DNA of 64,000 nucleotides from Tetradesmus obliquus. Taxonomy: Eukaryota; Chlorophyta; Chlorophyceae; Sphaeropleales; Scenedesmaceae. The position numbers and the translations under genes are program-made. Positions 7,020-63,347 of this stretch are shown piece by piece. How positions within the stretch are numbered: the stretch's first letter is position 1; each line of letters opens with the position of its first letter. The stretch covers positions 546,501 to 610,500 of the forward strand of contig CP126205.1 of NCBI GenBank assembly GCA_030272155.1. The letters run 5' to 3'. The notes under the pieces are model-generated. The model was not told where the DNA came from and ran no database searches. It saw nothing but the letters and a program-made list of their open reading frames with translations.

Positions 7020-10000
7020 CTACTCCTGCCACTTGTGCAGCTCCATGCCCTCGGGCGGCGTGCAGTCAATCTTCTTGGCGCCCACGTCCTTCCAGTTGGT
7101 GGACAGCACCGTGCCGTTGCTCTCCACAAAGCTCTTCATCATGGCACGCCGCGTGTCCTCGTCACCCTGCAGCAACATGGTACACCGGGCGATGCTGTTA
7201 CTATATTGGTGCTGATCATGTGCATGCATGCAGCAGTGAGTTGCTCTCCACGAAGCTCTTCATCATGGCGCGCCGCATGTCCTCGTCACCCTGCAGCAGC
7301 ACAGAAAAAAGCGGCGCTGTCACTACATTTGTGCTCATCATGTGCATGCATACAGCAGTGGGTTGCTCTCCACCAAGCTCTTCATCATAGCGCGCCGCGT
7401 GTCCTGGTCACCCTGCAGCGGCACACATAGAGAAACTTGACGGTGTTACTACATGTAGTGACATTTGATGCTTGCAGCAGCGGGTGTGCCGCGTGTCCGA
7501 GTCACCCTGCAGCAGCCCAGCACACCAGGCAGCGCTGAGACCATCTTTGTGGAGATCGCGCGCAAGCATGCAGCAGTGGGTTACTCTCCACGTATTTCTT
7601 CATCATGCCGCGCCGCGTGTCCTCGTCACCCTGCAACAGTGCAGCACATAAGGCCACGCTGTTGTGTGAAGCCATGTGTGAAGACGATGATCGTGCATGC
7701 AGCACTGAGTGTACGCATGCCCCTGCGCAGGTGCGCCAGCTGCACGTGCAGCAGGTGGAATGTACAACGGAAGCAGTGCTAATGCGACACCACGGGTCAT
7801 CCCCCCCATGCCAGCTGACGCCTCCATAACACGACGGCAGCTCCACCAGGGCCCTGCCGCCCTGCAACATGCTGGCGCACGTGCAGCAGGTGGAACCACC
7901 AAAAGCACAAAAATAAACCAAAAACACGTGTGCGCCCCTTCCGCCCTCACCGCCCCGGCGCGCCATCTGAGGCACACTCACGACAACAGCCCTGGGAGGG
8001 CCCCTGATGCGCACAGCTCAACAAAGTATCGCCAATCAAGCCATGGCAGTAACGCCGATGCTGCGCGCACCTGTGAGAAGATCTTCTTGAAGAATGCCCC
8101 CAGCGGGTCGGCATCGTCCAGCTCGCCCTTCTCCTCCAGCTCCTTCACCTCAGCTGCAGCAGGGCAGGACAGCCAACCAACCGAACAAGACTTCAGTAGA
8201 TATGTTGGTCAGCCATCGTCCAGCTTTCTCTTCTCCTTCAGCTCCTTCACCGCAGCTGCAGCAGCACAGGACAGCCAGACAGTCAAATATAACTGTTCAG
8301 TCAGCAAACTATGTTAGCCAGCCATCGTCCAGCTCGCCCTCCTCCTCCAGCTCCTTCACCTCGGCTGCAGCAGCAGGCAGGACAGCCGGACAATTGGCCG
8401 ATCAGTCGGTCATCATCGTTGTCAGTCAATATCAGTCGGTCATTATCGTTGTCAGTCAATATCAGTCGGTCATTATCGTTGTCAGTCAATATCAGTCGGT
8501 CATTATCGTTGTCAGTCAATATCAGTCGGTCATTATCGTTGTCAGTCAATATCAGTCGGCTGCAACAGTGGTGAGCTGGCTCACAGGCAGGGTGACATGC
8601 AACAGTGGTGAGCTGGCTCACAGGCAGGGTGACATGCAATGTGAACAAGGGTCGGCATCATCCAGCTATCCCTTTTCCTCCAGCTCCTTCACCTCAGCTG
8701 CAGCAAGCACGAAAGCCAGCTATCAATCAATCAATCAATTACACAAACAAAGCATGATGAGTGCGGTGCCATGCCAGCAACGCAAGCAGAGCGTCATGTA
8801 CTTCATACAAGGCACACAAGCAAATATGGGAGTCTACATGCGATTGCGTACTGCTAAACCAAGCAGCTGCCACACCCTGCAAAACAACCCACACACCTAC
8901 ACGCCATGCTGTGGCTGTTGACAACAAGCTGATGAACGATACATGCCCACACAACACAAACAGCTGCCCAGCGGCACTCATGTAAAACAAAGTGCACTGC
9001 TTGATGCCCAGCACCCACCTTCCACCTTGTCCCAGTTGCGTGTAGGCTTGCTGCTAGGGTAGGCGCGCGAAGGGCCCTGCTCAGGCGCCGCTGCTGCTGC
9101 TGCTGCTGCCACGCCTGCTGCTGCTGGGCCTACTGCGCCCTTCTCCAGGCTGCGCCAGTTGAGCCCTGGCTGCGCCTTGAGCAGGCTCACCTCCAGCTTC
9201 GTCTTGAGCACCTCAGCCTTCACGCTGCCTGCATGAGCATGCGGAAGAGAGCCAGGCGGCGACATGCGAAACATGCTGCGTGAACGGACCAACCATCGCA
9301 CCAAGAGCGCAATGCACAGCAGCACTTTAAGTTGATGTACATTGTAGGTTCCGGCTGTCGGGTGAGCCGCTCAGCTAGGCTCGTTGCCACTGCGTGACCC
9401 AGCCACTTGCTGATCGTAACAAATAGCAGGCCCGGCAGCTCAGAACAGCTCGGAGGCTATCCACCCCTGCGCTCATGGCGATACTTGCAATACCCAACAT
9501 GCTCCAGACACCGCACGCAGACATGGCAGCAACCTGCACTGGCAGGCGCAGCCACACATGCGCAGCAGCAGCAGCTGCATCCCCGACCTCAAAAAGAGCT
9601 CACCTGGCGCCACCTTGGAGAACAGGTCAAACTCCAGCACAAAGTCCTCATCATCAGCTCCCTGCTGCTGCTCAGCCTGGCCGCTGCTGCTGCTGGCTCC
9701 TGCTGCTGCTGCTGCTGCTGCTGCTGGCTGTGCTGCGATGGTGATCTTCAGCTTGTCATCTTCCCCTTCCAGCTGCACTGCCACTGCATCTTTCGGCAGG
9801 TTCTTGGCATACACGTCGATGACAACCTTGCTGCCAATCTGATACCACTGGTGCCTGCAGGAGACAGCGAACAAGACCATACGGCTGCAATGTGTTAACA
9901 ACCATAACACCGTATCACCAAAGTGAGCATGTATGCGGGTGCTGCCATACAAGGCGCTAAGCAGCTGCTGCTGACTATGAGCGGCAGTCATGGTACGGAG

Positions 10001-27516: not shown

Positions 27517-27800
27517 ATGAGTGGCACGCAGCCCGGCAGCAATGGCGGCACCAGTACGCAGCAGGACCAGCAGGGAACACACAGCAGCCAGGACCCAGGC
27601 GCTCAGCATAATGCCAGCAGCAGCAGCACCAACAGCAACGGCACCAGTCCCAGCTCAAGTGCTGAGCCGGTTCGGCATGCCAAGCTGAACAAGGAGCAGC
27701 CACAGCAGCAAAAGCAGCAGCAGCGGCATACAGCGGCCGTATCGCCCTTCACTGGCAGCAGCTTGCCTGTTGAACCCCAGCTTGAGCAGCACAAGCCAGC

Positions 27801-27854
<54 letters not shown>

Positions 27855-27906
27855 CTTGCATCACTCTGCAGCAGCCAGCAGCGTCTCTAATGCTGCAACG
27901 CACCCA

Positions 27907-27937
<31 letters not shown>

Positions 27938-27965: not shown

Positions 27966-28001
<36 letters not shown>

Positions 28002-44494: not shown

Positions 44495-46700
44495 AGCAGA
44501 TCTGCTGAGCAGCACAACCCCGAAGGCAGCGAGGCATTTCAACGAAGAGATTACGACACCGCCTACAGATGCTACAGCAGGGCTATCAAGGCGGATCCTG
44601 CCGTGCTCAAGTACTGGACAAACCGTGCCAACACACTGTTCAAGTAAGCTGCACTCGCTGACAGCAACAGATACACATGCAGCACATCTGACAGCGTAAG
44701 GCACGGGCGCAGAAGTGAACAATCATGCTGCCAGCACCTGCCCCACCATGAGTGACACTGGGACCCTGTCAATGCACTGCTGCTGCCCCTGCCGTTGCTG
44801 CTGCTACCCTGCAGGCTGGGCCGCACGCGCCAGGTCATTGATGACGCAGACGCTGCCATCAAGGCAGACCCCAGCTGGATGAAGGGCTACTACTTCAGGT
44901 GCGGCAAGCAATAGCAGTCAGAGCACTCGAGGGCGTTCCGTTTCATCCTGTTGGATCCTGGCACGTGACACACATAGATCCCCCAGACCAAAGTATTGGG
45001 CGCGCAGCATTCACACACCATCGGCTGCTAACATGTAGAACTGTCGTGGCCGCTGCCATTGCACCTGCTGCTGCTGCTGCTGCAGGGGCGTGGCGCATGA
45101 GAAGCTGGGCAACCTGGATCAGGCAGTGGCAGCGCTGCAGCAGGCGGCAGAGCTGCAGCCGGATGACGCAGGCGTCACCGCTGCACTCAACAGGTGCGGC
45201 GGGTGCCGCAGAATTGAGCTCGTAAAAGTTGGTGACAGGTGGTTTTCCACCTCAAGTTTGTGCGTCAGTGAAATGAAGGCTGCAGGACGCTGCGGCACCT
45301 GGAGTTATGCAAGCCGTTTGTCTCCTTGTCCTTCTTCAATTTAGCATGGAAGAGCATGGGCTTCGACAGGCCTGCTTCTACTGTGTAGGACTTGCAGTTA
45401 CAGCCGCGACTCTCAAGCAGTTGCTTGACTTTGCTGCGAACTAGGCAATCAAAACTTCCTGTTCTGTTGCCCCGCAGGTGCCTGGAGGCCACGGACGCTG
45501 CCAGGCGCAGCTACACGGCTGCCTCAAGCAGCAGCTTCCACAACGACCCTGCCAGGTCAGCAGCACAGCTGCAGCAGAGGTCATGAGACATACATTCAAT
45601 TACACAAGTTGTCAATCAGATTTTGAAATATTGAGATTGATACAGCAGGATTGCATGCCAGCTGCTTGTTTGCAGGAGAGCAACATTGATATACGCTCTA
45701 TTCATTTGCCCGTATGCTGGTTGATGTTTTTCAGGTCAGCAGCGCGGCTGCAGCGGGGCCTGGCAGGCCTCAGCAGCAGCAGCCGCCTCACCCCACAGCA
45801 GCTGCAGCAGGCACAAAAGTTTGGCAAGGCACATTCCCTTGTCGTGCAGGCAGACAAGGCCCGCTACAGCAGCCCTCCTGACCTGGCGGCAGCAGCAGCG
45901 CTGTACAAGCGGGCTGCGGAGCTGGGCAGTGCCTCGGGGCAGTTTATTTATGCGCAGATGATACAGCACAGGCAGGTGGATGAGCCAGTGGCTGCTGCCA
46001 TGCCGTGGCTGCTGAAAGCGGCTGGCCAGGAGCCGGTGCTGCCATACATGCCAGGATGCCCCAACATTGGGGTTGTGGAGGCCTGGGCGATGCTGGGAGA
46101 CATGTACAGGTTAGGGGCTGAATGTTTTGTGCTAGGTGGCATGTACAGGCAAAGGGCAGCATGATGTGTGCCAAGTCTGCCATACACACCAGGATGCCCT
46201 AACAGTGGAGTGGTGGAGGCCTGGGCAATGCTGGGTGACATGTACAGGTGAGGGGCTACTGGCTTGTGGTGCATGGAACTGTGGCTGTGCACTTAGTTGT
46301 GGATGTGGCACCAATCTGGATGCGGCTAGGATGATTTGCACTGGACTACAGAACACACATGTCAGTGTCAGGTCTAGTGGCTGCTGCCATGCCGTGGCTT
46401 TTGAAGGCTGCTGGCCAGGAGCCAGTGCTGTCATATATGCCAGGATGCCCAAACATCGGGGTTGTGGAGTCCTGGGCGATGCTGGGAGACATGTACAGGT
46501 GCGGGCTGCCAGCTGGCTGTGTGCAGTTGGTGTTTGATACATGCGCCGTTGGCGTGCATGTTGCCGTCAATGTGTTGCTGACCTGCACTACTGCTGGACT
46601 GCTGTTCACCTGGCTATTATCAAGCTGTGACCTGCTGTTCTCCATTTCTGCTGCCGGCACCACGCCACCAAAGTTGCTCCTGCGGTTGCTGCTGACGCTT

Positions 46701-46737: not shown

Positions 46738-48478
46738 ACAGGGATGGCCTCACAGGCCATACACCGAACCCCGCTGAAGCCATGCGCTGGTACCTCAAGG
46801 CAGCAGCACCACCACACAGCAGTGCCCTGGCCCAAAACAACATCGGACGAGCCTACCAGGCTGGCAACGGCGTGCCAGCAGATGCAGCAGCGGCAGCAAG
46901 CTGGTATAAGAAGGCAGCAGACCAGGGATATGGTGTGGCTGAGTTCAACCTCGCAGCCCTGCTGCATAGCGGTGCACCTGGTGTGCCGCTGGATTATGCA
47001 GCTGCATTGGATCTGGCACAGAGGGCTGAGCAGCATGGGGTGGCTGAGGCTGCAGCGCTGGTTGTGGATCTGGAGCCGAGCTGTGCTGCTGCTGCTGCCA
47101 AGCTGCGGGCACTGGCTGAGTCTGGCAGCCCTGCGGGGTGCCTCATGCTGGCACGGGCATACCATGATGGCCTGCACGGCTGCGAGAAGTGAGTGCGGTG
47201 ATGCGGCTGCGATGGCGCAAGTGTGCTTTCGGGGTGGGGAGTTGCCGTGACCTGCATGGCCTGACGCACAAGTTTCAATGCGTGCGTGCCGCCCTTCAGT
47301 TGAAGAGTTGTGCAACAACAGCTGCCTTGCCTGCAGCACAGTCAGGCCTGCCCTCTGCAGCTGACGCCATGCCTGCTGATGTCAATGACCAGTGACAACG
47401 TCACAGTGTGTGCCTAAAAAAATGCTTGCTGGCATGTGCTGCCTGCTCATGACTTCAGGGACCTGAAGGCCGCGCACAAGTGGCTGCTGGCAGCAGCAGC
47501 AGGCAAGCTGCCAGAGGCGCAGCTGCTGCTGGGCATGGCGTACAAGGCTGGGCAGTGGGGCTGCGAGGCGTCACCGCTGAAGGCTGTGAGCTTCATTGAG
47601 AAGGCGGCACACCAGGGCATGGCTGAGGCACAGCTGGAGGCAGCACGCTGCCACATGTGAGCGCACAACTCAGCGATTGCTGTTTGCAATCCTTGATGCT
47701 CAAGCTGTACATCTGTACCACGGCACCCACCTGCGTGCCCGGCACCACTGGTAGTATGATGATGGTATTGGCAGTAGCTGGGGTAGCAGCAGCCGCAGAA
47801 GCAGCAGCCATAGCGGCGCAGCTGTTGCCACCAGGAGCTTCATTGAGAAGGCGGCTCACTAGGGCCTGGCTGAGGCACAGCTGGAGGCGGCGCACTGCCA
47901 CATGTGAGCGCACAAATCTACTGATTGCTATTTGCAATCTTTGATGCTCAAGCTGTACATCTGTACCACGGCACCCAGATGTATACCCTGCACTGCTGGT
48001 AGTAAACTGGTGGTGCTGGCAGTAGCTGGGGTAGCAGCAGCAGTGGCAGAAGCAGCAGCCATAATAGCGCAGCTGTCCACATCAGGATGAGCATGCATTG
48101 CCAGTCAGACGCAGAGCTGTGCATGCAGCCTTATGGTGCCGCTGTCACTGTCGCTGCTGCTGCCGCTGCTGCTGCTGCTGCCTTGCAGGCTGGGAGTCGA
48201 CACCAAGGTGGACGTTGCCAAGGCTCAGCATTGGGCTATGCAAGCAACAAATTTTACCATTCATGCTGCTGTTGCTGCTGCCTTGCAGGCTGGGTCGACA
48301 CCAAGGTGGACGTCGCCAAGGCGCAGCATTGGGCTGCACAGGCAGCAGCACATATGACATCATGCTGCTCCTGCCACTGCTGCTGCTGCCTTGCAGGATG
48401 GGAGTCGGCACCAAGGGGGACGTTGCCAAGGCGCAGCACTGGGCTGCACAGGCAACACCACATATGACATCATGCTGC

Positions 48479-48511
<33 letters not shown>

Positions 48512-49127
48512 CTCACAGGATGGGAGTCGGCACCAAGGTAGATGTGGTCAAGGCGCAGCACTGGGCTTCACATGCAGCAGCGCAGGGCAGCAGTGAGGCA
48601 GCAGAGCTGCTGCGGTCCCTTGAGAGCAGCAGCGGCAAGCAGTGGGCCAAGACGGTCAAGGAGGCAAAGGCGGCATGCGTGCCACAGGGCGGGGCAGGGT
48701 CTGGTGCTGCAGGTCGGTTGGGTGGGTAGGCAGCACAACCAGGCATATGTGTGCCAGATAGTGTGCTTCAAGTTGCAGAAGCTATGCAGGGCTAGTGCTG
48801 TTGGTGAGTTGGCAGGCTGTTACTGAGCTGGGCTGGTTGGCAGGCATGCCAAATGGTGTGACAGGCGCTGGTGCTGCAGGTGAAGGCTGGGTGGTTTGTG
48901 TGGAATGGTAGCACAGTGATCAGCTTGGCCGGGTGGCAAACAGGCATGCGTCAATCAGCGTGCTGCAGATAGGCAGGGACTGATGCTGCTTGTCGGCTAG
49001 GCAGCAGGATGCTTAGCTGGGCTGCTTGGCGGCCAGGCCTGCGCCAGACAGCATGCTACTGCTGTATGTTGAGAGCTTCGACTCTGCTGCTACATAGTAT
49101 ACTGTTGATGCAACATCTGCGCTTGTC

Positions 49128-49159: not shown

Positions 49160-52100
49160 CCCGGGCAGGGGCCACGCTGGAGGGCCTGCTGGGCAGCTCT
49201 GCTGCTGGCGGCATCCCTGAGGAGGTCAAGGACTGCATGAGGTGAGGGGTTGCATGATGACAGAGGGCTGTTGTGGCTGGCTTGCAAGTGGACCTGCTTG
49301 CTGTGACTGCATGATGCGCACCTTTGCACCAGTTTTGGTAGCATGCATGCTGCTGGCAGCATCCCTGGGGAGGCAAAGGACTGCATGAGGTAAGGCGCTG
49401 TGCAAGCGGGCAGTGAGCGTGATCTTTGTGTGAGCCGCACTTGTATTCAACCTCAACACTGCTTGAGGTGAGACGCTGTGCACGGGGTTAATGATCATAG
49501 TAGTCTTCCTATAAACCATTACCTGTATTGTTGATCTTTCTACTGCTTGAGCTGAGGGCCGGACAAGCCGGCAGCAGCTCAAATGCCAAGCAGCCTCTGG
49601 GCAGCATGCAGTGCTCGCCAACATATAGTCAACGGCTTTGAAGCATGCATCCTGCAAAGCTGCAAAGCCGCAGTGGATTCATACGTGTGCGTTCTGAGCA
49701 GCTTGTGGCCTGACAGTGAGTAGGCTAGTATGACATGTGCCGGACTATTACATGCGTCCACAACCACGCAGCTGCTGCACAATGGCTGCAGGGAGCTGCT
49801 CAAGCTGCATGAGGGATGCCGCCAACCCTGCCAGTGCCTTCAGCAGAAGCGCGGCTGGCCCCGCCGGCTGGCCTGATCGCTTCCCGCTGGAGCAGCTGCT
49901 GCAGTACAGCCACAGTGAGGCAGTACAGCCGTACATCCAGGCCAAGATGTTGCAGTACACAGGGCTGGAGCTGTGCTTGGAGCGGGGCCAGCACCAGCTG
50001 GGCTACCAGGCACTGGCGCGCGGCTATGCACTCTTCCACAGGTGATGGATGCTGATGTACAATGCATGTAGACGGCCGGAAGCTGTTGGATGTGTGTGCT
50101 GCTAGCTGCCGTATCAGCTTGCCTGCACTATCTGAGCTCGCCATAAAACTGTCCTGCCGCCGCTGCTGCCGCCCACCGGCCATGTGGCATTCAAATATGT
50201 TGTGATGCACCTGCAGGGTCATGAAGCTGCCGTACGAGATGCTTGGTGACTTGGAGTCCCACCTAAGCCGCCCTGACGACGTTTCTGGATATTGTGTGCT
50301 GCCAGCTGCAGTGCGAACCTGCCATCACATGAGCTCGCGGCAACAATGTCCTGCCGCCGCCACTGCCGCCTGCCTGCCATGTGGCATTCACATATGTTTG
50401 ACACCTGCAGGGTCATGAAGCTGCCATATGAGATGCTCGGTGACCTGGAGTCCCACCTAAGCCGCCACCCTGACGCCGTCTCTGGCTGTTGTGTGCTGCC
50501 AGCTGCAGTGCGCACCTGCCATCACATGAGCTCGCGGCAACATGCCGCCCCCGCTCCGCCCGCCTGCCATGTGCGGTTCACATCTGTCTTCACACCTGCA
50601 GGGTCATGATGCTGCCATATGAGATGCTGGGTGACCTGGAGGCCCACCTCAGCAGCCACCCTGACGACGTTTCTGGATATTGTGTGCTGCCAGCTGCATT
50701 GGGAACCAGCCTGGACCATCGCATGAGCTCGCTGCAACAATGTCCTGCCGCCGCCGCTCCGCCCGCCTGCCATGTGTGTGGTGTGTTCACATATGTTTTC
50801 ACGCCTGAAGAGTGATGAAGCTGCCATATGAGATGCTGGGTGACCTGGAGTCCCACATCAGCCGCCATCCTGACGATGTTTGTGCAGCGCTGGTGCACGC
50901 GATGGCAGCAGCAGGCAGCCGCGGCATGGCCTGGGCTGAGCGGCGACTGGGGCAGCTGCTGCCGCGCCTGCCGGCTGAGATGAAGCCGCATGTTCAGCTG
51001 ACGCGAGCCGAGCTGCGCATGTGGCCCCAGCTGGCCGACTATGCAGGTGCGTGGCGCAAGATGGATACATAGAGGGATTACACCAGTGTGTTCGTGCGGC
51101 TGCGCCGCGACAGGCCTGGTTATGCAGGTGTGTGTTGCAAGTTGCAGCGTGGCAGCTGGACCAGCTTTGTGTCTGAAAGCAGAGATGTGCATTTAGATAC
51201 GGCGGGCCAGGCAACCCCAGGAATGCGTCGTGAAGCTGCGTGCAAGCGGTGTGCGCATGCTTGCTGCTGACTCCTGCACTGCTACGTAGCAGCTGGAGGG
51301 GTTGCTGTGTTATGTTGACAAAGTGTTGCAATGTCACCTGGGCACCTCTGCTGCTGTTGCCGCAGGTGCAACTGCACACAGTGAGGCAGTGCTGCAGCTG
51401 CTGCCAGCCGACATTTCGAGACATCACATAAGCTCAAAATGTAAACACTCAAGATGTGCGCCTTTGCACTTGTCACTGCAGGTGCTATTGCGGACAGTGA
51501 GGCAGTGCTGCAGCTGCTGCCAGCCGACATCTCGAGACATCACATAAGCTCAAAATGTAAACACTCAAGATGTGCGCCTTTGCACTTGTCACTGCAGGTG
51601 CTATTGCGGACAGTGAGGCAGTGCTGCAGCTGCTGCCAGCCGACATTTCGAGACATCACACTGAACTCAAACCATTGACTCAAGATGTGCCGCTTTGCAC
51701 TTGTCACTGCAGGTGCTATTGTGGACAGTGAGGCAGTGCTGCAGCTGCTGCCAGGCAACATATCGAGGCATCACGTAAGCTCAAAGTGTAAACACTCAAG
51801 ATGTGCGCCTTTGCACTTGTCACTGCAGGTGCTATTGCGGACAGTGAGGCAGTGCTGCAGCTGCTGCCAGGCAACATGTCAAGGCATCACATTGAATTCA
51901 ACCCCGTTGACTCAATACACGTGCACCATTGACTTGTCGCCGCAGGTGCTGTTGCGGACAGCAAGGAGGTGCTGCAGCTGCTGCCAGGTGATCCAGATGC
52001 GCTGTACGTGCGTGCACTTGCAATGCAGCAGAGCCTTCCCCCCGCACGGCGCAGGGGTGCCGCCGCTGCAGCCAAGGCAGCAGAAGTGGAGGTAACGCTG

Positions 52101-52580
52101 CGTGCGTTCATTGCTGCTGCACCGCCTGAGCACTGCAAGCGGCCGCAGCGCTACTACACTCTGGCCTTCCAGCTGCTGTCTTCTGGTGAGAAAGAAAGGA
52201 CAGCAGCGGCAGCGGCAGCAGCAGCATTTCAGGAAGTGGAGGCTGTGTATGAGGCAGGACTTGCAGCAGAGGCAGATCTGCCTCCATTCTTCCTGCCGGT
52301 TGAGTGCGGGGTCAAGGACATTTTGGCACCCATGATGAAGGCACTGCGTGTGAAATACAGCAAGAAGGGAGCTGCAGCAGTGCCACAGCAAGACAACGGC
52401 AGGGCTGGCAGCAGCAGCAGCAGCGGTGGCAGCGGCACCAGCGGCAGCTGCTGTGACAGGTGTGGTGTGGCTGCTGCCAAGCTGATGAGGTGCAGCAGGT
52501 GCCAGCAGCGCTGCTTCTGCAGCAAGGCCTGCCAGGTGGAGGATTGGAAGGAGGGACATTCACGCACCTGTGGCAAGTAA
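44495..52580 (+). CDS. TPR-SEL1-MYND zinc-finger protein (5' end unresolved)
   Basis: Exons 44495-44643, 44815-44898, 45086-45193, 45478-45555, 45735-46109, 46742-47188, 47459-47656, 48519-48712, 49169-49241, 49814-50041, 50811-51046 and 51946-52580; 934 residues from the first supported codon. Seen: TPR repeats (EAFQRRDYDTAYRCYSRAIK, AHEKLGNLDQAVAALQQAAE); SEL1-like repeats (YKRAAELGSASGQFIYAQMI, SWYKKAADQGYGVAEFNLAA, AHKWLLAAAAGKLPEAQLLL); a helical region; and a C-terminal MYND finger with CDRCG, CSRCQQRCFCSKACQ and HSRTCG. MYND and TPR/SEL1 modules bind proteins, so a scaffold role is inferred. The frame also runs to a stop at 48729, but a donor at 48713 gives correct phase into 49169, and a copy of that boundary lies at about 48866-48885; I therefore join the halves. 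Weak points are the first exon (TAG stop just upstream) and non-canonical acceptors at 49814 (CATGAG) and 50811 (CTGAAG). Confidence 0.75.
45548..45770 (+). other. Intron apparently made by tandem duplication
   Basis: The donor side of intron 45556-45734 reads GCCAG|GTCAGCAGCACAGC and continues CTGCAGCAGAG. The acceptor side reads TTCAG|GTCAGCAGCGCGGC and continues CTGCAGCGGGG. Thus the first 27 or so bases of the intron duplicate the start of the next exon, with AGGT at both boundaries. Confidence 0.8.
46160..46503 (+). repeat. Two echoes of the exon 5 end (TPR-SEL1-MYND)
   Basis: 46165-46256 and 46364-46503 copy the end of exon 45735-46109 with donor (GVVEAWAMLGDMYR; the second copy also holds PWLLKAAGQEPVL and MPGCPN). 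They lack an upstream acceptor in correct phase. Confidence 0.88.
47588..48075 (+). repeat. Tandem duplication of exon end plus intron, about 250 bp
   Basis: The end of exon 47459-47656, its donor and over 100 bases of intron (TTGCAATCCTTGATGCTCAA, CTGTACATCTGTACCACGGC) are repeated about 250 bases downstream. The second exon piece carries an in-frame TAG (CACTAG for CACCAG), so it is not coding. Confidence 0.9.
48180..48460 (+). repeat. Three echoes of the exon 48519 start
   Basis: Copies at about 48181-48245, 48282-48345 and 48392-48455 repeat TTGCAG and the first 50-60 bases of the exon (GVDTKVDVAKAQHWA in protein). The intact exon starts at 48519 after CTCACAG. CTG runs precede each copy. 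Confidence 0.9.
49345..49392 (+). repeat. Echo of the exon 49169-49241 end
   Basis: GGCAGCATCCCTGGGGAGG through GACTGCATGAG and a GTAAGG donor copies the end of exon 49169-49241 about 150 bases downstream. Confidence 0.8.
50212..50720 (+). repeat. Three echoes of the exon 50811 start
   Basis: Copies beginning at about 50212, 50408 and 50597 contain CCTGCAG|GGTCATG, the start of the exon (VMKLPYEMLGDLESHLSRHP) and a shared 3' tail (TGTGTGCTGCCAGCTGCA). The units are about 190 bp long. Only the fourth copy at 50811 continues in frame (DDVCAALVHAM), and its own acceptor has decayed to CTGAAG. Confidence 0.9.
51360..51900 (+). repeat. Five tandem echoes of the last exon start, about 116 bp apart
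   Basis: Copies start at about 51366, 51482, 51600, 51716 and 51832, each with GCAG|GTGC and then AVLQLLPAD or AVLQLLPGN. A conserved spacer containing CACTCAAGATGTGCGCCTTT separates them. The intact exon starts at 51946 (GAVADSKEVLQLLPGDPDAL). Confidence 0.95.
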
Positions 52581-53878
52581 CTTTCTGCTGCAGCGCTGCC
52601 CATGCATATAACAATGTGCAATCACGTGCACGACAACCCCCGCTTTTTACTCGTTTTGTGACAGACTGGCTGTTGTCAGACTGGAAGGAGGGCCACGCAC
52701 GCACATGCGGCAAGTAAGCAGCGCTGCCAGTGCATACAACAAGGTGCAAACACGTGCACAACAACCACCGTTTTTGCTGGTTTAGTGATGGGCTGGCTGT
52801 TGTCAGACTGAAAGGAGGGGCACTCAAGCACCTGTGGCACGTGAGCTGCAGGGCCCTGTGCGCATCCATTGGTGGATTTGGCAGCCACTGTCTCCTGTGC
52901 GTCTGTGGTGTGAGGATGGCTGTTGTGAGCAGTGCACCATTGTGATGAGCATAAGCCGCTTATGCTAGCAGTGTACGCTACCGCGCTTGGGGCCATCAGC
53001 AGCAGCGCTGGCCTCATTTGAGGCCCGCTGTCGCCGTTGCACCGTGTTGGACAGCAAGGCCTGCCAGGTGGCTGACTGGAAGGAGGGCCACTCACGCACA
53101 TGTGGCAAGTGAGGCATGCGCTTGAACACGCTGCCCGTGCATATAACAAGGTGCAATCACGTGGACGACAACCACCGCTTTTCACTCGTTTGGTGATGGA
53201 CTTGCTGTTTCAGACTGAGAGGAGGGCCCCTCACGCACCTGTGGCAAGTGAGGCGGGCGCTGCCACACTTGATGATCGCCAACCATAGCTGCTACCGTAG
53301 CTGCGGCAGCGACTGCTTGCCTGTGCATGGTGTGGCAGGAGTTGCTGCAGCTGAGGCAGTTCATTACAGTGCGGTTTGGCCAGTAGTGCGCCCTTCTAAA
53401 CTGCTGGCATCAATCCTGGCAGATGGGCTACAGGCTTGTCTGCATTTGCGCAAGGGCTACCAAGGCATGCTGCATGCAGATACAAACGGCGGCACCACAA
53501 GCACTGCAAGCCCGAATGCCAGCAAATGCATGCTTGGAGGTATATTGTTGATTGTTCATGCGTAATCTCGGTCCTGCGCGACCTAGTGATACAGCTGACT
53601 CGTTCCCGCCCTCCAAGCGTCAATGACTGCTCGAATGCCAAGGTCAACTCAAAATACCAGAAGCCCACACAAGGTTACTAAACATGATCATAGATATATC
53701 GTGGGCGTCTCAGCTGTGTGTCTGCGATTTGTTTTATCGGAAGTACAGAAAACCGATTATTACGCTGCTACCGGGGCAGCAGGGCAGCCATTAATCGTCT
53801 TCACGTCTTTTTAGTACAAAAACAGACATAATTGGTGGAGCTGTAGTACGTGGCTGGTTTCTCGGCAATCGGCAGTAG
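52581..53878. other. Intergenic region with echoes of the MYND exon end
   Basis: About 1.3 kb between the TPR-SEL1-MYND stop and the GH3 start. Up to 53255 it is filled by four decayed copies of the end of the MYND exon plus adjacent 3' untranslated sequence (about 52670-52717, 52795-52845, 53060-53112, 53205-53252). Two still read WKEGH(A/S)RTCGK. The unit includes GTGCAATCACGTG and a TTTTACTCGTTT-like stretch. From 53260 to 53878 no gene is recognised; the GH3 promoter should lie there. Confidence 0.75.
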
Positions 53879-54527: not shown

Positions 54528-57500
54528 TGCACACGTTATCTAGCTGGCTCCGCTGGCAGCTGACACACACAGGATTGTGTAGGCCACCTCTCGTAGCCAC
54601 GCATTGCGTGCACACCATCTGGCATGTAGGCTGTGCCGAGCCGGCACGATTTAAGGAGTTCTAGTTCCTTGCAGCGTGCCATGCTGCTGGGTTGACATAT
54701 GTTGAGCTGCAGCTGATGCTTCATGGTGCACCGCCGCTTCCAGCAACTGCACGGCGCAGCGTGGACTGATCTTCAAGCCATTGAAGCAGCTTTTCCATCT
54801 CACAGTCTGCCTGACCGCCCGCGCTTGCAACTGTGTTTCATTATGCGCTTTGGTGTGGCTGCATGTGCCGCCAGAGTGCCTGCACGGCCACCAGGAGCGT
54901 GTGTCTGTCTGTTGAACCAGCGCTGCCACCTGACGATTTGCTGGACCTTGAACGTGTATGCTCATTGCGTTTCCGTGTTTGTGTGGTACTGTGCGGTGTT
55001 GCAAAGTGCCTGCACGGCCACCAGGAGCGTGGCAGCGGTGCCATGTTTGCCTATGCATCAACCTGCTTATCGTTTTGCCTGTGTCTGCATGTGTCGGCAG
55101 AGTGCCTGCACGGCCACCAGGAGCGTGGCGCTGGTGCCGTGCCGACCATCTTCCCTCAGCCGCTGCTGCTGGCCAGCAGCTTTGATGACGCACTGGCCTG
55201 GCAGGTGTGGAGCAGTAGCTAACAACTCAAGCAACAGACCCTGCATGCTGTGTTGCTGGCTGCCTGCAGTGTAGTTAAGCTAGCTGCTGCGCTGCAGCTG
55301 CTCGTGGCATGCTCTTCTGTTAGTGTTAGTGTTTGTGTGTCATACCAGCTATATTTCAAGGACCTGACCAGCTGCAGCACCGACATAGGGTGACGCAATT
55401 CCAGCATTGCTTACGCATCACCAACTGGATGGGGGCTCGGGATGCTTGTCTGCATGCTCCAGTATTGAAAACTCCTCCAATGCCCGTCTTATGTCACCCT
55501 ATGCAGGTGTTCAACGCCATCTCTGATGAGCTGCGGGCAAAGGACAACGCAGAGTTTGCAAAGTCAGGCAACAGGAAGTGAGTACAAACAAACACCACCA
55601 CCAGCAGCAGCAGCAGCAGCTACGCAGTGACATTGGCAGCTGACGTACGTGAGCTGCCCTCAAGAAGCAGCCCAACCAGCAACAGCAGTTGCAGCTGCAA
55701 TGGCTACGCAACCCCAGTGCAGCCCTACACAGCTAGTATATGCCGCAGCACAGCTGAAGGCAGCTGCAATGCAGTGCAGCTCCAGCTCCCGCTCCCGAGC
55801 CATGCACTGCCAGCAGGGTCCAGCTCATGTAGTTCATAGAAACACCTGATAAACAACACGTGCTGCACCACTGCAGGGGCCTGGTGTGCTGGACGCCGCA
55901 TGTGAACATCTTCAAGGACCCTTGCTGGGGCCGCATGTGCACCTCAAGCCTAACCTAACCCAATGCACTGATTCCCGGTGTGCTGCACTGCAGGGGCTTG
56001 GTGTGCTGGATGCCTCAGGTGAACATATTCAAGGACCCGCCAACACTAACACTGAAACCGCTGCTAAAACCGCTGCATGCATAATTTTCGCTGCTGTGCA
56101 GGGGCCTGGTGTGCTGGACGCCGCACGTGAACATCTTCAAGGACCCTCGCTGGGGCCGCGGCAGTGAGACCTTCGGGGAGGACCCCGTGCTCACCAGCCG
56201 CATGGCGCTGCGCGTGGTGCAGGGGCTGCAGGGCAGCGACCCCGACTATAAGAAGGTGCGTGGGAGTAGGCTGGCCTGTGTTTTGGATGTTTGAAGGTGT
56301 TGATACTCTGCAGTTGTTGTGTAACTGGGCAGCCTGCAGGGCGGCAAGCCTGCCTGCTAGTTGGTATTTGGGTTGGCAGGCTGGCTGGCTGGCATTCGAC
56401 TCAAACAGCAAGGGGTTTACAGCCACACAAAGCAACAAACAGATGGCTGCACCCACACTATAATGCTTGCTGGGGCCATAGGCAGACACTGGAGCTGATG
56501 CATGCTACTGCTGCTGCGCTGCGCAATATTGTGTCAGGTTGTGGCCACCTGCAAGCACTTCCTGGGCTATGGGCTGGAGGGAGCGGAGGGCCACAGCAGG
56601 TGCGTGCTGCTGGCCCAATGTAGCAGGCGCATTGCAGCAGGCAGTGCAGTGAGCAGCACAGCGTGATCGGCAGCAGTGACCCAGCTAGTGCTGGTAGATT
56701 ACATGGTCATGGCGGCTGCTGCAAGCAGGTGCTTTCAGGAACGCACTGGTTGGATGAGTGCTGCCTTTCACTGCACATTGATTAGATCAGCGCAGCAGCT
56801 GGATGGCAACGCAGTTCATCCTTGCAGCTGAATCAAGCGCCGTCCGTCCTCATGTGTATTGTTGCTGCTGCTTTTGCTACAGGTACTCCCACAACATCGA
56901 CATCAGCCCGCAGGACCTGACAGACACCGACCTGCCTCCATTCAGGGCCTGCGTGCAGGTGCGACACAGCAGCAGCAGTGTGCATGACAGCTGCAGGTGT
57001 GGCTGTGCTGGAACATTGCATAGCAAACTTGGCGCAACACACAAGCTGTACTGCACAGTTTCTGCACGCAGTTGATGTTGTTCTGGCATTTTATGCGATA
57101 TGCAAATATGGCTGGCGTGCAGGGCTCTAGGCACTCTAGGCACACATTCTCTTATCACACTTGTGGCAGTTTGACCTGGCATGTGCTGTTTTGCACCAGC
57201 AACGGTTTTCATGTATGTGACTCTCCTCTGCAGGGTGCGGGTGCGCTAGGCATCATGTGCGCCTACAACGCAGTCAATGGCACGGCAAGCTGCGCCAGCG
57301 CGCCGCTGCTGCAGAAGCTGCTGCGGGGCAACATGGGCTTTGACGGCTACGTGGTGTCAGACTGGTGAGGCTTGCACAGCGTTGTCATGTTCCTCTGTGC
57401 TTCTACCCAAGTTTAATACACAACGGTAGTTCATAGGCGATGCTAGGGTCTCACTGGGTTCGCTGTCCGTCTGTGGGGCTGTTGGCGATGACTGCTCTAG

Positions 57501-60500
57501 GCAGTAGAGGACTGTGGGAACTGCAGTGCACTTTGTATCAGCAAAAGTACTGCAGCCACCATTGGCGGCTGCTGCGAGGCAACATGGGCTTTGACGGCTA
57601 CGTGGTGTCAGACTGGTGAGGCTGCTGCTTTGCTGGTGTTTTTCAGCCTATTCACCCACGTGCCTTGAGATGGTATGCATGTTTAGCTGCTGTAATCGCA
57701 TTGTGGCTGCTGTGTGGCAACATGGGCTTCGACGGCTGTGTGGTTGGACTAATGCGGCAGCACAGCACCACGCTTGATGTCTGTGTTTCCATATCTATCA
57801 AGACCAACATCAATGCACATCCAGCCATATCAATACATGACAGTGGTGCAAGTGCTGAGCTGCGGCTTGTTGTGCTTTTGGCCTTGACCTTTGCCATGTG
57901 GAGGGGGTGATGACTGACTGCTGCTTGTCCTGCTGCTGCTGCTGCTGTATCCACAACAACAGCAATGCCATTCAAGCGCTGGAGTGGGGCCACGAGGCCT
58001 ACCCCAGCATGCGTGACGCGTCCGCTGCTGCTGTCAAGGCCGGCGTGGACCTCTTCTGTGACAAGGCAGATCAGGTGGGCGGCGGGTGCCGTTGACTTGT
58101 GTGTGGCATGGGGACAATGCTTGCAGGCAGTGACTCAGTCAGACTTTGCTGTTGCTGCTGGCGCAGCCGGCGCTGGTCATAGCTGGTGCACCTGCACATG
58201 TACTGCATTCGTGCTAGAGCTGCTGCATGAGTCACCAGCTGCACACAGCTAGATAATGCTCAGCTGGAGCATTTTGCACCATGACGCAGTGTCACATTCT
58301 CTCATGCTTCGCTCCACACCAAACCGCCAGCAACCTCAATGATTTGCTGGCAATACCCGCCACATGCCATATATGCTGTGCTTCAACACCATTCTGCACT
58401 GCTCTTACCTGTGCTGCTCTGTCTTTCTTTCGTTTCTTGCTGCGCCGCAGCTCAAGCCCGCGATTGAGGCCGGGCTGCTCTCACCAGAAGACATCGATGC
58501 AGCCGTCAACCACGCGCTGGCAACTAACCCTGTCATACACTGTGCTGCACTGTTTGCCGTACGCAGCTCAAGCCCGCAATTGAGGCCGGGCTGCTCTCCT
58601 CAGCAGACATTGATGCAGCTGTCAACCGCACGCTAGCAGTGCGCTTCGCCACGGGCCAGTTTGATGCGCCCCAGGCCAACCCCTGGCGTGAGCTGCCACT
58701 GAGCACCGTGAATGGCCGCATGAGCAGGCTGCTAGCACGCAGCGTGGTGCAGAAGGGTGAGCGGGCACGGGTCAGATTGTGTGCAGACGCAGGGCACACT
58801 CCTCCGCACATTGTCAGATTGTGTGCAGACGCAATGCACACTCCTCCGCACATGAGCCAGGTTGATGAACCGTCTCCGTCAAGCACCCGCTGCTGCACAG
58901 TGACATGCTTGACCTGGTTGCGGCTGTGCGCTTTCTGAATATGCACACAGCTTTTGTGTGTATGTGGCATTCGACACCACAGTAATGCTGCTGCTTCCTG
59001 TTGTTTGGTACTACTGTTTCTGTCTGGTTTTTCATCGCAATCATTGTGCTGCTCTTGAACAAGGCCCCGCCAAATGCACGTTTGTTCCATGAGCTTGCAG
59101 CTCACTGTCTGTCCCATGCAACTTGCAGGCATTGTGCTGCTGAAGAACAAGGCCCCCGCAGGCGCCGACAAGCCGCTGCTGCCTCTGGACAAGGCCTCCC
59201 TCAAGAAGCTGTGCGTGCTGCCATGCTCATGCTTTCAAGTTCACTTTCTTTCCCATGCACCCCGCAGGCATCGTGCTGCTCAAGCGCAAGGTTTTTTCAC
59301 AGCAACATAAAAATGCGGCCATGCATTTGCCTGAATAAGCACTCTGTGTCACATGCAACCCGCAGGCATCGTGCTGCTGAAGAACAAGGCCCCCGCAGGC
59401 GCCGACAAGCCGCTGCTGCCTCTGGACAAGGCCTCCCTCAAGAAGCTGTGCGTGCTGGGGCCCCTGGCTAACTCGGCTGAGCACATGATGGGCAACTACT
59501 ACGGCAACTTTGATGCGGACATCGCAGCAACGCCGCTGCAGGGCATTCAAGAAGAGCTGGGTGAGTGCTGTTAAATAAGCAAGTGCGCGCTCGCTGTTTT
59601 GATTATCAAAGTCAGGTGGCTACAATTGCTGCGCTCTGCAAAGGATGCGGTCTTGGCGCTTCGCTTGTGCATGCTTGAAGCAAACATGTTGTGTGGGGCC
59701 GCTGGCCAACAGCGCACTGCACATGATGGGCAGCTATTATGGCAAGATTGATGCCGACATTGCAGCCACACCGCTGCAGGGCATCCAGGAGGAGCTGGGT
59801 GAGTGCTGTTGAGGTTGGTTGTTTTAATGGTTTAGTTTGTTATTTCATCGCTGACCTGTGCATGAGGCACTATCGTGGTGCTGTGCTTGCGCAAGCGTCA
59901 AGCACGAATGGTGTGTGGGGCCCCTGGCCGACAGCGGCGGAGCACATGATGGGCAACTATCACGGTAACTTTGCCGCGGAAGGGTGAGTGATGCGCTGTT
60001 GTGTGCTGTCTGCCCTGCATGTAACTGCAGCCTGTGTGCTGTGCCTGCACACGGCCACCTTGTCATGTCCAAATGCAGGGCATGGCGTAAAGCTCTGCTT
60101 GTGCTGCAACATCCGCTTACACCTATTTTCTTTCTCCTTGCTAGTCTCTGGTCTGCTGCCTGCCATGGCACCCCTCCTGATCCTGCTGTGGTGCTGCTGC
60201 AGCGGGCTCCGACGCAAATGTGGAGTATGCACCCTGTCCCATTATCTGACTGTGTCAGTAAACCTGCTGCTCCCGCTTTCTCCTGTTGCATTTCTTCTGC
60301 CTGCTTGTGTTGCTGCATTGCAGCGGGCTCCGGCGTCAAGGTGGAGTATGCTCAGGGCATGTGGTAGGTGTGGTGATTACTTTATACAAATGCCCTGACC
60401 CAACATTGTCTCTGCTTGCCACATCTCTCTGTGCTGCAGCGGGCTCTGGCGTGAAGGTGGAGTATGCGCAGGGCATGGACCTGATGGGGCAGATCCACTA

Positions 60501-63347
60501 CGACTGGCCCCTGGAGACGGCACTCAAGGTGAGCAATCGACCACCCGCTCACTTGCTTCATCGCTACATGCTGCACAACATGTTGTCTCTCTGCACGCCA
60601 ATCGTGCCATCGTGGCCTGAGTTTGCCAATTCACATTCAACTGCATCTCTTGTGTGGCTTCTGCAGGCGTGCAACGGCGCCGATGCAGCAATCGTCGTCA
60701 TCGGCAGCAGCATGATCGAAAACGAGAAGTCCGCGGACGGCTCGCTGCGCCCCGCACACGAAGGCGAAGGACTCGACCGCAACAACCTAGACGTTCCGGG
60801 CCGGCAGGCAGACCTTGTGCGAGCGCTGGCGCGCCGTGCTCCTGGCCTGCCTGTGGCTGTGGTGCTTTTTAATGGTGGCGGCTTAGATGTGGGCTGGATT
60901 GACCGCATGCCGGCGGTGTCTGCCATGATGGCTGCAGGCTTCCCTGGCCAGGTGAGAAGGCGGCAGGACTGTGCAGCGTTATTGCCGACGGCTGTCGCGT
61001 TTGTACCGGGTGCTGTGCGTAATAGCATGCTCTTTGCGATGTCATGTATGTGGTTTTTGTGTGTGCAACCGGCTTGCCGGTGGCTGTGGTGCTGTTCAAT
61101 GGTGGCGGGCTTGATGTGGGCTGGATCGACCGCATGCCGGCTGTGTCTGCCATGATGGCTGCAGGCTTCCCTGGCCAGGTGGACGGCTGGCAGGAGTGTA
61201 CACAGTTCATGCCCTGGCATGCACTACCGCTTTGTGGTGGTTTGAGCAGTTGCCAATGCAAATGCCTGCATAGTGTGCACGCTCTTAGAGGTGTCTTTGC
61301 ACTGTGGAGCATGCATGCATGTTCACCTGCACTGCATCTCACCTTCAGCCTTATCCACGCTGCGTCCCTGCAGGAGGGCGGGCGCGGCATTGCTGACGTG
61401 CTGTTTGGCCGTGTGAGCCCGTCAGGCCGCCTGCCATCACCTGGCACCACTCCAACAGCCACTTGTACATATGTGTGTTGTGCAGGCTCCTGGAGGTTGC
61501 TCGCCCCACGCCTGCAGCATGAAATTCAACACACAAGTTGGCTGTGTGTTGGACTATAACCTCGTGTGTTCCGTTGTTCTGCGAAACCGCATCTCTCTGT
61601 AACTGCAGGAGGGCGGCCGCGGCATTGCTGACGTGCTGTTTGGCCGCGTCAGCCCATCAGGCCGCCTGCCCATCACCTGGCACCACTCCAACTACACCTA
61701 CCGCGTGTCGCCGCTGGACCTGCGCATGCGGCCAGACGCGGCCAGCGGCCACCCAGGCAGGAGCTACAGGTGAACTGCTGCTGCTGCTGCTGCTGCTGCT
61801 GCCTCTACTGCAATCACTGAGCATTGCATGATCAAGGCCTGCTGGCGTCATTGTTGGTGCAGCTGGCGGCGATGCTGCTGCTGGTGCCGTGTGTTGTCAG
61901 CATACACAAAGACCGTACTGCAAACTGCATGATAGTGTGTCCCCCCTGGACCTGCGCATGCGCCCAGACGCGGCCAGCGGCCACAGGGCAGGAGCTACAG
62001 GTGAGCTGCTGCTGTTATCAGTACCATTGGTTATCATTGCATGATCAAAGCCTGCTGAAGTCCGTCTGCTGTGAGCCACACAGCGTCCTCACAGCAGACG
62101 GCATAATCGTGTGTCGCCCCTGGACCTGCGCATGCGCCCAGACGCCGCCAGCGGCCACCCGGGCAGGAGCTACACGTGATTTCAGCGGTGCTGCTTGCTG
62201 CTACTGCTGATACTTTGGCATCTTGCTTATGCGCAAACATGAACACCACAATTTGAACTGCTTCCCAGTGCGTTGGCTCCTGATGCTCATACAAGTCCAC
62301 CGGAGGTTTCAGAGAGCCAAACACTGTGCAAGTAGGCCACCGCGGGATTGATGGCTGCGCTGCTGCTGCACTCCTTATCAAACACCTTTTTGCACATGTC
62401 TGTGTCGGCGCAATCCTTTGTGCTGTAACCCTTCGGCTACGGCCTCTCCTACACACCTGCTGACAGTACTACTGCTTGGTGATGCTGCTGCTGCTGCTGC
62501 TGCTAATGCTGCCGCCACGTGCTGTGCAGGTTTGTGTCGGATCCCTCCTTTGTGCTATACCCCTTTGGCTATGGCCTCTCCTACAGCAGCTTTGCCTACA
62601 GCGACCTGGCGCTGCTCAAAAACGAAGAAAACGGCTGTGTCAACGTGGGCACGGAGCCGGCCTTCTGCTTCAGAATGACTGTTACTAACAGCGGCAGCGC
62701 TGCGGGGGAGCACTCCGTGCCGCTGTTCCTCTCACACGAGCTGGCACGGGTGAGTGTGCAGGAGAGGGTGCCTGTGCTTTTGAGTGACTCACTCATGATG
62801 TGCTTGCCAGCATCACGTGGGTGTTGGTTGCAGTCAGACCACTGCTGTTCCTGTCACATGAGCTGGCACGGGTGAGTGTGCAGAGGAGGTTGCGCGTGGC
62901 TGTTTATTTGCTGTTTAATCCAGCGTTGCCCAAGTAGATGTGGGTACGGCACTGCCAGCTGCATATGCTCCGGATGGTGGACATGCATTGCAGCCGCACT
63001 CTAGCAGTCCGCAACGCGTGAAATGCTGCTTCTACAACACCTGCCGGCACGCTGTTGCAACAACAACTGCCTTCTCTGCCTTGCAGGGCAAGGACGGCTA
63101 CCCGCTGCAGTCGCTGCGCGCCTTCAAGCGCACCAAACTGCTGGAGCCAGGGGCCTGGGAAACACTCGAAATGCTGCTCAGCCAGTCTGACTTTGTCATG
63201 CCGAGGCCCTCTGATGGAATGAATGCGCTGCACCTGGGCCCCTGGAAGTTCACTGTGGGAAGTTTCGAGGGCGCGGCGGGAACTGGGGGACAGGTGGGAA
63301 GTATGCCGTCAGCCAGCTTGAGTGCTGAGGTGACACTGCCTTACTGA
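53879..63347 (+). CDS. Secreted family 3 glycoside hydrolase, beta-xylosidase/glucosidase-like
   Basis: Sixteen exons: 53879-53981, 54068-54487, 55101-55204, 55507-55577, 56102-56255, 56538-56599, 56883-56958, 57234-57364, 57963-58074, 58567-58756, 59366-59560, 60440-60528, 60667-60951, 61609-61769, 62530-62749 and 63087-63347; 877 residues, all phases consistent. GH3 enzymes remove terminal beta-linked sugars with retention. Seen: a signal peptide ([13 protein letters not shown]), a polyQ linker, [82 protein letters not shown] with nucleophile Asp about 373, [74 protein letters not shown] and a C-terminal fibronectin III-like domain. SDC rather than SDW, and the GRQ..LV segment, favour the plant beta-xylosidase branch; the substrate is an inference. 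Nearly every intron holds echoes of its flanking exons. Confidence 0.93.
54862..55060 (+). repeat. Echoes of GH3 exon 3 start
   Basis: Two copies of AGTGCCTGCACGGCCACCAG plus GAGCGT, at about 54870-54905 and 55002-55045, precede the intact exon at 55101 ([12 protein letters not shown]). Confidence 0.88.
55870..56036 (+). repeat. Two echoes of GH3 exon 5 start
   Basis: Copies with CTGCAG acceptor at about 55871-55935 and 55988-56038 repeat [15 protein letters not shown] with decay ([18 protein letters not shown]). The intact exon starts at 56102. Units are about 115 bp apart. Confidence 0.9.
57565..57752 (+). repeat. Two echoes of GH3 exon 8 end (nucleophile region)
   Basis: 57575-57622 copies [15 protein letters not shown] with donor; 57709-57752 is a more decayed copy. 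Both are downstream of the intact exon 57234-57364 and would duplicate the catalytic Asp segment if exonised. Confidence 0.9.
58449..58566 (+). repeat. Echo of GH3 exon 10 start
   Basis: CGCCGCAG plus about 80 bases copy the start of exon 10 ([20 protein letters not shown]), ending just before the intact exon at 58567. It lacks the RFATGQFD continuation. Confidence 0.9.
59085..59990 (+). repeat. Echoes on both sides of GH3 exon 11
   Basis: Upstream: 59125-59222 is an almost perfect 90-base copy of the exon start with acceptor ([20 protein letters not shown]), and 59262-59292 is a short one. Downstream: 59693-59808 copies the end with donor ([21 protein letters not shown], [10 protein letters not shown]), and 59915-59985 is a shorter copy. 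The intact exon is 59366-59560. Confidence 0.92.
60195..60362 (+). repeat. Two echoes of GH3 exon 12 start
   Basis: CTGCAG or TTGCAG plus CGGGCTCCG and following bases, at about 60196-60232 and 60320-60362, copy the start of exon 60440-60528 ([12 protein letters not shown]). Confidence 0.88.
61062..61455 (+). repeat. Echoes of GH3 exon 13 end and exon 14 start
   Basis: 61066-61184 copies the last 115 bases of exon 13 with donor ([20 protein letters not shown]). 61368-61455 copies the acceptor and start of exon 14 ([20 protein letters not shown]), with a one-base loss that breaks the frame before the TW motif. Confidence 0.92.
61940..62455 (+). repeat. Echoes of GH3 exon 14 end and exon 15 start
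   Basis: 61944-62005 and 62117-62180 copy the end of exon 14 ([12 protein letters not shown] and RSY) with GT donors. 62405-62452 copies part of exon 15 (SFVL, then a stop, PFGYGLSY). 62832-62880 copies the end of exon 15 with donor (FLSHELAR). Confidence 0.9.

Follow-up and report, generated by a model that had tools for sequence, protein, structure and literature searches.

We analysed a 64,000-nucleotide stretch of a green-algal genome (contig C15, positions 546501–610500; hereafter the window), in which the introns of five genes carry partial copies of their own flanking exons. The genome comprises 104.7 Mb in 17 contigs, with a GC content of ~57%. Gene models were built by hand for SGT1 and an ornithine decarboxylase-like gene, both on the minus strand, and for TIC20, a lipase, a gene with SEL1, TPR and MYND domains (SEL1-MYND) and GH3. 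They gave open, family-like proteins, with introns of the GT-AG type apart from one GC-AG intron. The models are provisional in three places: SEL1-MYND exon 1, the TIC20 start and the first small exon of GH3. An apparent GC donor (GCACGT, 11039–11044) was seen in SGT1 intron 1. The GH3 query (647 residues) was 88% identical over 100% of its length to a protein of Scenedesmus sp. NREL 46B-D3, in an alignment free of repeated segments. Judging from this best match, the source organism is a relative of that strain within its green-algal group.

Outside the window, we sampled 250 kb from five other contigs and predicted its genes with a simple gene finder for which the window had served as training set; it recovered 57–58 of the 63 window exons exactly in-sample (neighbouring settings). 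Self-training lowered this number to 49 of 63, and the first model was therefore kept for copy counts. Figures below for copy position, orientation, retained splice dinucleotides, whole exons and sequence identity refer to the window plus this sample. The bootstrap, the comparison between copies and the tests of AGGT junctions, spacing modulo three, splice scores and frameshifted or broken copies used the window and the first 200 kb, block B5 having been added later.

An all-versus-all comparison of the window under a strict low-complexity filter gave 99 direct-repeat pairs of at least 30 bp, none of them inverted, and all were in or within 800 bp of five genes (lipase 47, GH3 22, SEL1-MYND 19, SGT1 10 and TIC20 1). 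About one tenth of these pairs represented a purely intronic satellite. No strict-filter pair was more than 2 kb apart, as sharing of introner-like elements between genes would require. A looser filter gave 118 direct pairs, nine of which exceeded this distance, and two inverted pairs, all eleven being CTG/CAG-rich. Probing adjacent introns with exon sequences identified 68 partial exon copies in the five genes, 46 upstream and 22 downstream (66 copies in 29 of 57 introns at other thresholds). A preliminary description of the window had counted more than 50 such copies in these genes; our count agrees with it, and each gene has copies, although TIC20 holds only one. Exon-start probes found no match in at most two introns drawn at random from other genes, and an SGT1 exon probe matched its own locus only, with only the best candidates scored. 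A further 43 copies turned up in the 250 kb sample, where 26 of the 180 introns and 11 of the 39 genes had at least one; therefore, the window is rich in copies yet not unique. Copies were 27–123 nt long in the window and 27–203 nt when the sample was included, and none of 109 was a whole exon. They do not look like an assembly artefact made of near-identical collapsed or duplicated blocks, as they differ from their exons by 0–21%, have codon structure and are of unequal length.

The position of the copies followed a clear rule. A near splice junction was reached by 102 of 109 copies, compared with 5.0 expected if segments fell anywhere in the exon. Copies in upstream introns were exon starts in 54 of 57 cases and those in downstream introns were exon ends in 48 of 52, the orientation already recognized in that description. 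A tandem duplication across an acceptor necessarily places the extra exon start upstream, and one across a donor places the extra exon end downstream, since the inner copy alone remains continuous with the exon body. Neighbouring copies were spaced by 95–145 bp in 58 of 102 cases, with a second group at 195–260 bp (25 of 102). Together with arrays with periods of ~100–140 bp in the window and sample, this spacing agrees with recurrent short tandem duplication, which had also been proposed. Introns with copies were longer than those without (median 506 vs. 256 bp), gaining ~158 bp per copy from a base of 299 bp. A few young arrays consisted of complete repeats at 97–99%, spacer included, and complete young tandem units were also present (for example, 118 bp × 4.6 at 98% in sample block B1). 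Copies therefore start as plain tandem repeats, which have a spacer at first and lose it afterwards. Only 5 of 91 copies were complete units, having an intron part at similar identity.

The preliminary description had regarded the exon–intron boundary as the unit of duplication, which would imply a mechanism directed at splice junctions in particular, for example one linked to splicing or transcription. Among 25 arrays of any age (excluding three arrays of block B5), 12 spanned a junction vs. 3.9 expected, a figure in favour of such a process, though 7 of the 12 were inside the window, which was picked for its exon copies. Outside the window, 5 of 14 arrays spanned a junction. The eight arrays with at least 90% match, which are the young ones, were distributed almost randomly: two were at junctions, four intergenic, one exon/intergenic, one exonic and none intronic, with 1.2, 3.2, 0.2, 1.7 and 1.7 expected, respectively, and the excess at junctions was not clear. 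Besides, all five exon-only arrays had periods divisible by three (87, 69, 63, 72 and 60), and in SGT1, lipase and SEL1-MYND, copies of the terminal exon end were found past the stop codon, in DNA that has no splice junction, the lipase and SEL1-MYND repeats spanning the stop codon itself. These observations argue against the boundary as a targeted unit, and we consider a junction-specific process very unlikely. The junction rule requires no junction-seeking process, since sorting by survival suffices; the young arrays, though small in number, suggest that duplications are born at random places. Tandem duplications that are short, typically of ~100–140 bp per unit, would then arise anywhere in the genome. 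Those wholly inside an exon would survive only if in frame. Those spanning a junction would do no harm, as the inner copy alone is part of the full exon, and would accumulate in introns and lengthen them.

If nothing else happened, the intronic copy would simply decay, with the rule following from geometry. Such plain neutral duplication would account for the orientation, the spacing, the survival filter and the complete young units, but it is contradicted by how the copies have diverged, a matter that the preliminary description did not address. Mean identity to the exon was 0.908 for the exon part and 0.628 for the flank (null 0.54 on the acceptor side and 0.52 on the donor side), the flank figures covering only the 40–45 bp beside the splice consensus, because distances of ~235 bp may represent two units and the unit does not then equal the distance to the exon. 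Under neutrality, flank divergence should be at most about twice that of the copied exon part, and a simulation fitted to the mismatches observed, which let 5% of amino-acid changes pass in the exon and set transitions at 57% and flank indels at 15%, gave a flank identity of 0.88, vs. the observed 0.63. Flanks were above the null at p<0.05 in 33 of 102 copies and not above it in 69; among copies whose exon part was at least 90% identical, 19 of 58 exceeded it. For example, copies of lipase exon 9 and GH3 exon 7 showed 97–100% exon identity with flanks no better than the null.

Mismatches between copies and exons were also strongly biased by codon position (118, 92 and 336 at positions 1, 2 and 3, with ~2,040 sites each). 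The resulting ratio of 3.21 lay well outside the simulated neutral value of 1.60 (1.43–1.85). A bootstrap of 56 families, made before the last 50 kb were added, gave 3.32 (2.55–4.37), and the 200 kb sample alone 2.89 (1.91–4.71). The ratio of nonsynonymous to synonymous divergence (dN/dS) was 0.23 in the window and 0.33 in the sample, in the same sense, and within the window it was 0.11 below 9% divergence and ~0.3 above. The same bias was found when two intronic copies were compared with each other (63, 63 and 186 mismatches by codon position, in 53 non-independent pairs). Base composition does not appear to be the cause of the third-position excess, as base and CpG mutability, derived from two non-coding arrays, did not differ across codon positions. 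With flank identity, codon-position ratio and copy-to-copy bias all against it, plain neutral duplication appears unlikely to be the whole account.

A second possibility is that the copies are functional half-exons, which enter some mRNA isoform, are under selection at the protein level and keep their splice sites in use. The differences at dN/dS ~0.25 would fit this, as would the small number of in-frame stops in window copies (3 vs. 9.3 expected) and the state of the acceptors: AG was retained in 52 of 54 upstream copies, copy acceptors scored like real ones (9.38 vs. 9.35), and the preceding tract was more pyrimidine-rich than at other intron AGs (0.66 vs. 0.49), to which CTG-repeat composition may contribute. 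Downstream copies retained GT in 35 of 48 cases, but their donors were weak (4.44 vs. 9.49 for real donors), so that the load of decoy splice sites envisaged in the preliminary description holds at the sequence level for acceptors and much less for donors. Its statement that copies lack the partner site was borne out beyond chance level for upstream copies only. A donor-like site was present at the broken end of 2 of 51 upstream copies, below the null of 15.6%, which suggests selection against copies able to act as complete exons; acceptor-like sites on downstream copies (8 of 40, null 21%) were at chance level. Hidden introns joining copy and exon halves inside the copied segment were rejected (AGGT in 10 of 91 copies vs. 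52 of 347 control segments), as was in-frame inclusion of a copy with its spacer, 98 copy spacings being 37, 34 and 27 modulo three and thus not biased to multiples of three.

The missing partner sites, the absence of hidden junctions and of in-frame spacing, and the weak donors all speak against half-exons, and so does the condition of the copies. A frameshift was found in 17 of 91 copies, which still kept much of the bias (dN/dS 0.37). Counting frameshifts, stops and lost splice sites together, 24 of 91 were broken, with a dN/dS of 0.31 vs. 0.23 in the 67 intact ones. In GH3, 17 of 20 amino-acid differences polarised with P0001 occurred on the copy, two on the exon and one was ambiguous, and the copies altered several residues invariant in all three aligned orthologues. 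Thus, nothing in the copies points to a strict coding constraint acting on them at present; they look like recent snapshots of coding sequence, differing from the local exon mainly at synonymous sites. As read from their sequences, they are not exons themselves, because the second splice site is rare and a quarter are frameshifted, stopped or without a splice site. We regard functional half-exons as improbable.

Several further observations concern the source of the copied sequence. The possibility that copies are frozen while the exon alone changes was rejected: in 17 families with at least two copies, 126 private changes were on the copy and 23 on the exon (14 shared changes set aside). Site pairs in conflict with a single tree made up 8 of 21 informative pairs, which fits exchange; the test was applicable in 5 of 11 families with at least three copies, and conflict was found in three. 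No GH3 paralogue that could serve as a template was found in the genome, with only the best candidates scored, and the template would therefore be the GH3 locus itself or its alleles. No close orthologues for polarising lipase and SEL1-MYND were found. A relative has been reported as likely diploid with separate haplotype contigs (PMC7955037).

On these grounds, we propose, with about even confidence, that random tandem duplication and a survival filter are followed by re-copying of the exon edge and its splice site from working exons while the spacers drift. The spacer of most units would drift to noise, and the exon edge with the adjoining splice site would be overwritten repeatedly from the working exon by gene conversion or unequal exchange. 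The copies, their placement rule and spacing, the contrast between exon part and spacer and the codon-biased differences are observed, whereas we infer both this re-copying and its inter-allelic source. The other allele is probably included, as most differences of the copies from the local exon and among themselves are synonymous, and as the gene's own exon, if it were the only template, would give a codon-position ratio near 1.6. A more far-reaching version, which we think doubtful though worth stating, is that introns serve as a lasting reservoir of exon edges which, though untranslated, exchange sequence with the population's working exons, across alleles, whereby protein-level selection reaches DNA that is never translated. 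If so, past alleles could be read from the intron copies, and these would supply the gene with synonymous changes and, now and then, with amino-acid changes.

Alternatively, changes in untranslated copies may return to the exon, through exchange or deletion, with such frequency that harmful ones in the copies are selected against. Such an exchange load would explain the codon bias of dead copies and its weakening with divergence (dN/dS from 0.11 to ~0.3, as above). By our estimate, such selection would be effective only if exchange outpaced drift, and copies would then stay far closer than a synonymous divergence of 0.2 unless the population were hyperdiverse; we give this explanation little chance.

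Several points weigh against the account that we propose. The allelic synonymous divergence it requires, ~0.2, is very high, and flanks of two alleles so diverged should still partly align, which most do not. Conversion from the local exon, with neutral copies, predicts a codon-position ratio of at most ~1.6, so that either an outside template or real constraint is needed. Frameshifted copies were somewhat less biased than others (0.37 vs. 0.22), as present constraint would also predict, and copies with a similar flank had like codon bias (dN/dS 0.25 vs. 0.27), the classes not being cleanly separate. The unit size of ~118 bp does not follow from the account. Also, the young-array test included only eight arrays, one of whose "intergenic" members was inside a gene in a second gene prediction, and the gene models of the sample, made by the window-trained finder, are provisional.

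Known systems resemble this pattern in part. Where exons are mutually exclusive or tandemly duplicated, each is complete, keeping an open frame and a splice site on either side. The algal copies share with such exons the repetition of exon sequence within introns, but no whole exon was found among 109, upstream copies rarely had donors (2 of 51) and 24 of 91 were broken. In concerted evolution and gene-conversion cassettes, silent copies are kept similar to a working copy. In contrast, the silent copies of the alga are exon edges inside the same gene, with similarity that mostly stops near the splice site. The rice insertions studied by Vaughn and Bennetzen in 2014 reportedly stem from break repair that leaves short tandem duplications. 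Small tandem duplications of <100 bp arise in break repair through Pol alpha-primase fill-in, and are likewise short, adjacent direct repeats; that account, so far as its sections on formation go, concerns formation and not fate, whereas the alga shows narrow spacing of ~118 bp and upkeep limited to the exon (PMC8355091). In the potato RdRp gene, a tandem duplication across an intron–exon boundary created a new intron (Ma, Lan and Niu 2016, PMC4974935). As in the alga, a junction-crossing duplication repeated the exon start and its splice signals; there it is a single case, with a new intron whose donor came from the copied exon piece. In the alga there are scores of duplications per few hundred kb; donors are mostly lacking, conservation is higher in the exon part than in the spacer, and no new intron was seen, with one possible exception. 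In the open literature, none of the matches listed described this genome-wide pattern, and the word "intron" had zero occurrences in the main text of a relative's genome paper and in that of a comparative paper on the order.

These findings imply that introns can lengthen in steps of ~120–160 bp through ordinary tandem duplication, and suggest why repeats can seem drawn to splice junctions although selection is enough to sort them. Strong decoy acceptors beside real ones provide a natural test bed for splice-site choice, and automated annotation of these algae may mistake decoy exon starts for real ones. The codon-biased divergence of seemingly untranslated fragments is a puzzle, to which inter-allelic exchange, hidden isoforms and exchange load are candidate answers.

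Exons of the five genes and their partial copies. Start and end copies repeat the exon start and end, respectively; coordinates are window positions.
Gene and exon	Copies	Span	Strand	Basis
SGT1 exon 8 (7020-7166)	three start-plus-acceptor copies in upstream intron: 7240-7290, 7352-7412, 7580-7630	7020..7630	-	exon probes; tandem period 122 bp
SGT1 exon 8, end	31 bp, 100% identical to 7022-7052; beyond stop codon, no splice junction there	6849..6879	-	repeat search
SGT1 exon 7 (8071-8153)	three start: 8207-8255, 8323-8362, 8649-8697	8071..8697	-	exon probes; period 102 bp
TIC20 exon 4 (25503-25626)	one start: 25392-25422	25392..25626	+	exon probes
Lipase exon 1 (27517-28906)	end: 29083-29129, with 15 bp of intron	27517..29129	+	exon probes
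Lipase exon 2 (30196-30398)	29387-29482, 29604-29701, 29814-29909, 30005-30093; internal piece 29232-29281	29232..30398	+	exon probes
Lipase exon 3 (30763-30882)	end: 30970-31011	30763..31011	+	exon probes
Lipase exon 4 (31196-31330)	start: 31091-31126; end: 31447-31525	31091..31525	+	exon probes
Lipase exon 5 (31872-31982)	start: 31712-31765; end: 32190-32224	31712..32224	+	exon probes
Lipase exon 7 (32996-33109)	start: 32875-32913; end: 33276-33331	32875..33331	+	exon probes
Lipase exon 9 (34200-34300)	start: 33977-34030, 34088-34134 (47/47 identical, spacer unlike)	33977..34300	+	exon probes
Lipase exon 10 (34622-34707)	start: 34403-34458, 34515-34563; end: 34758-34805	34403..34805	+	exon probes
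Lipase exon 11 (35069-35170)	end: 35312-35347	35069..35347	+	exon probes
Lipase exon 13 (37846-37929)	end: 38066-38094	37846..38094	+	exon probes
Lipase exon 14 (38891-38998)	start: 38414-38449, 38518-38555, 38627-38690, 38753-38795; end: 39176-39236, 39410-39462	38414..39462	+	exon probes
Lipase exon 15 (40205-43198)	start: 39735-39786, 39861-39945, 40051-40099; 43273-43325 is a 77% copy of stop-codon-spanning 43171-43223	39735..43325	+	exon probes, repeat search
SEL1-MYND exon 5 (45735-46109)	end: 46177-46247, 46376-46498	45735..46498	+	exon probes
SEL1-MYND exon 7 (47459-47656)	end: 47835-47903, with in-frame stop	47459..47903	+	exon probes
SEL1-MYND exon 8 (48519-48712)	start: 48191-48237, 48294-48352, 48397-48457	48191..48712	+	exon probes
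SEL1-MYND exon 9 (49169-49241)	end: 49348-49389	49169..49389	+	exon probes
SEL1-MYND exon 11 (50811-51046)	start: 50218-50287, 50412-50475, 50603-50675	50218..51046	+	exon probes; period 197 bp
SEL1-MYND exon 12 (51946-52580)	start: 51378-51407, 51482-51523, 51598-51639, 51713-51755, 51829-51871	51378..52580	+	exon probes; period 116 bp x 5.4
SEL1-MYND exon 12, end and DNA past its stop codon	repeated: 52679-52849, 53052-53265	52520..53265	+	repeat search
GH3 exon 2 (55101-55204)	start: 54875-54901, 55005-55045	54875..55204	+	exon probes
GH3 exon 4 (56102-56255)	start: 55877-55934 (97%), 55994-56038 (89%)	55877..56255	+	exon probes
GH3 exon 7 (57234-57364)	end: 57568-57615 (98%), 57706-57744	57234..57744	+	exon probes
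GH3 exon 9 (58567-58756)	start: 58451-58522	58451..58756	+	exon probes
GH3 exon 10 (59366-59560)	start: 59129-59220 (99%); end: 59694-59798, 59916-59980	59129..59980	+	exon probes
GH3 exon 11 (60440-60528)	start: 60324-60361	60324..60528	+	exon probes
GH3 exon 12 (60667-60951)	end: 61063-61178	60667..61178	+	exon probes
GH3 exon 13 (61609-61769)	start: 61374-61456; end: 61937-62000, 62108-62174	61374..62174	+	exon probes
GH3 exon 14 (62530-62749)	start: 62398-62453; end: 62844-62871	62398..62871	+	exon probes

Other features of the window were also recorded. The ornithine decarboxylase-like gene (13530–16702), beside the copy-filled genes, has seven introns with a median of 220 bp and no copies. 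Amid the SGT1 exon 7 copies is a 30 bp × 5.3 minisatellite with 99% match (8401–8559), so that several repeat types occur in one intron. A 185 bp × 9.5 satellite (35589–37304) is confined to one lipase intron, and lipase exon 15 contains an in-frame 87 bp × 3.7 repeat (41053–41373) coding for a serine/alanine-rich repeat of 29 residues. In GH3 exon 10, the start copy stops at exon position 92 and the end copies (59694–59980) begin at ~90, meeting at one point inside the exon. In SEL1-MYND, the nine bases CTGCATGAG at the exon end (49233–49241) are found again just before the acceptor of intron 9/10 (49805–49813), as would be expected of a new intron derived from tandem duplication, and this intron is the one possible exception referred to above.

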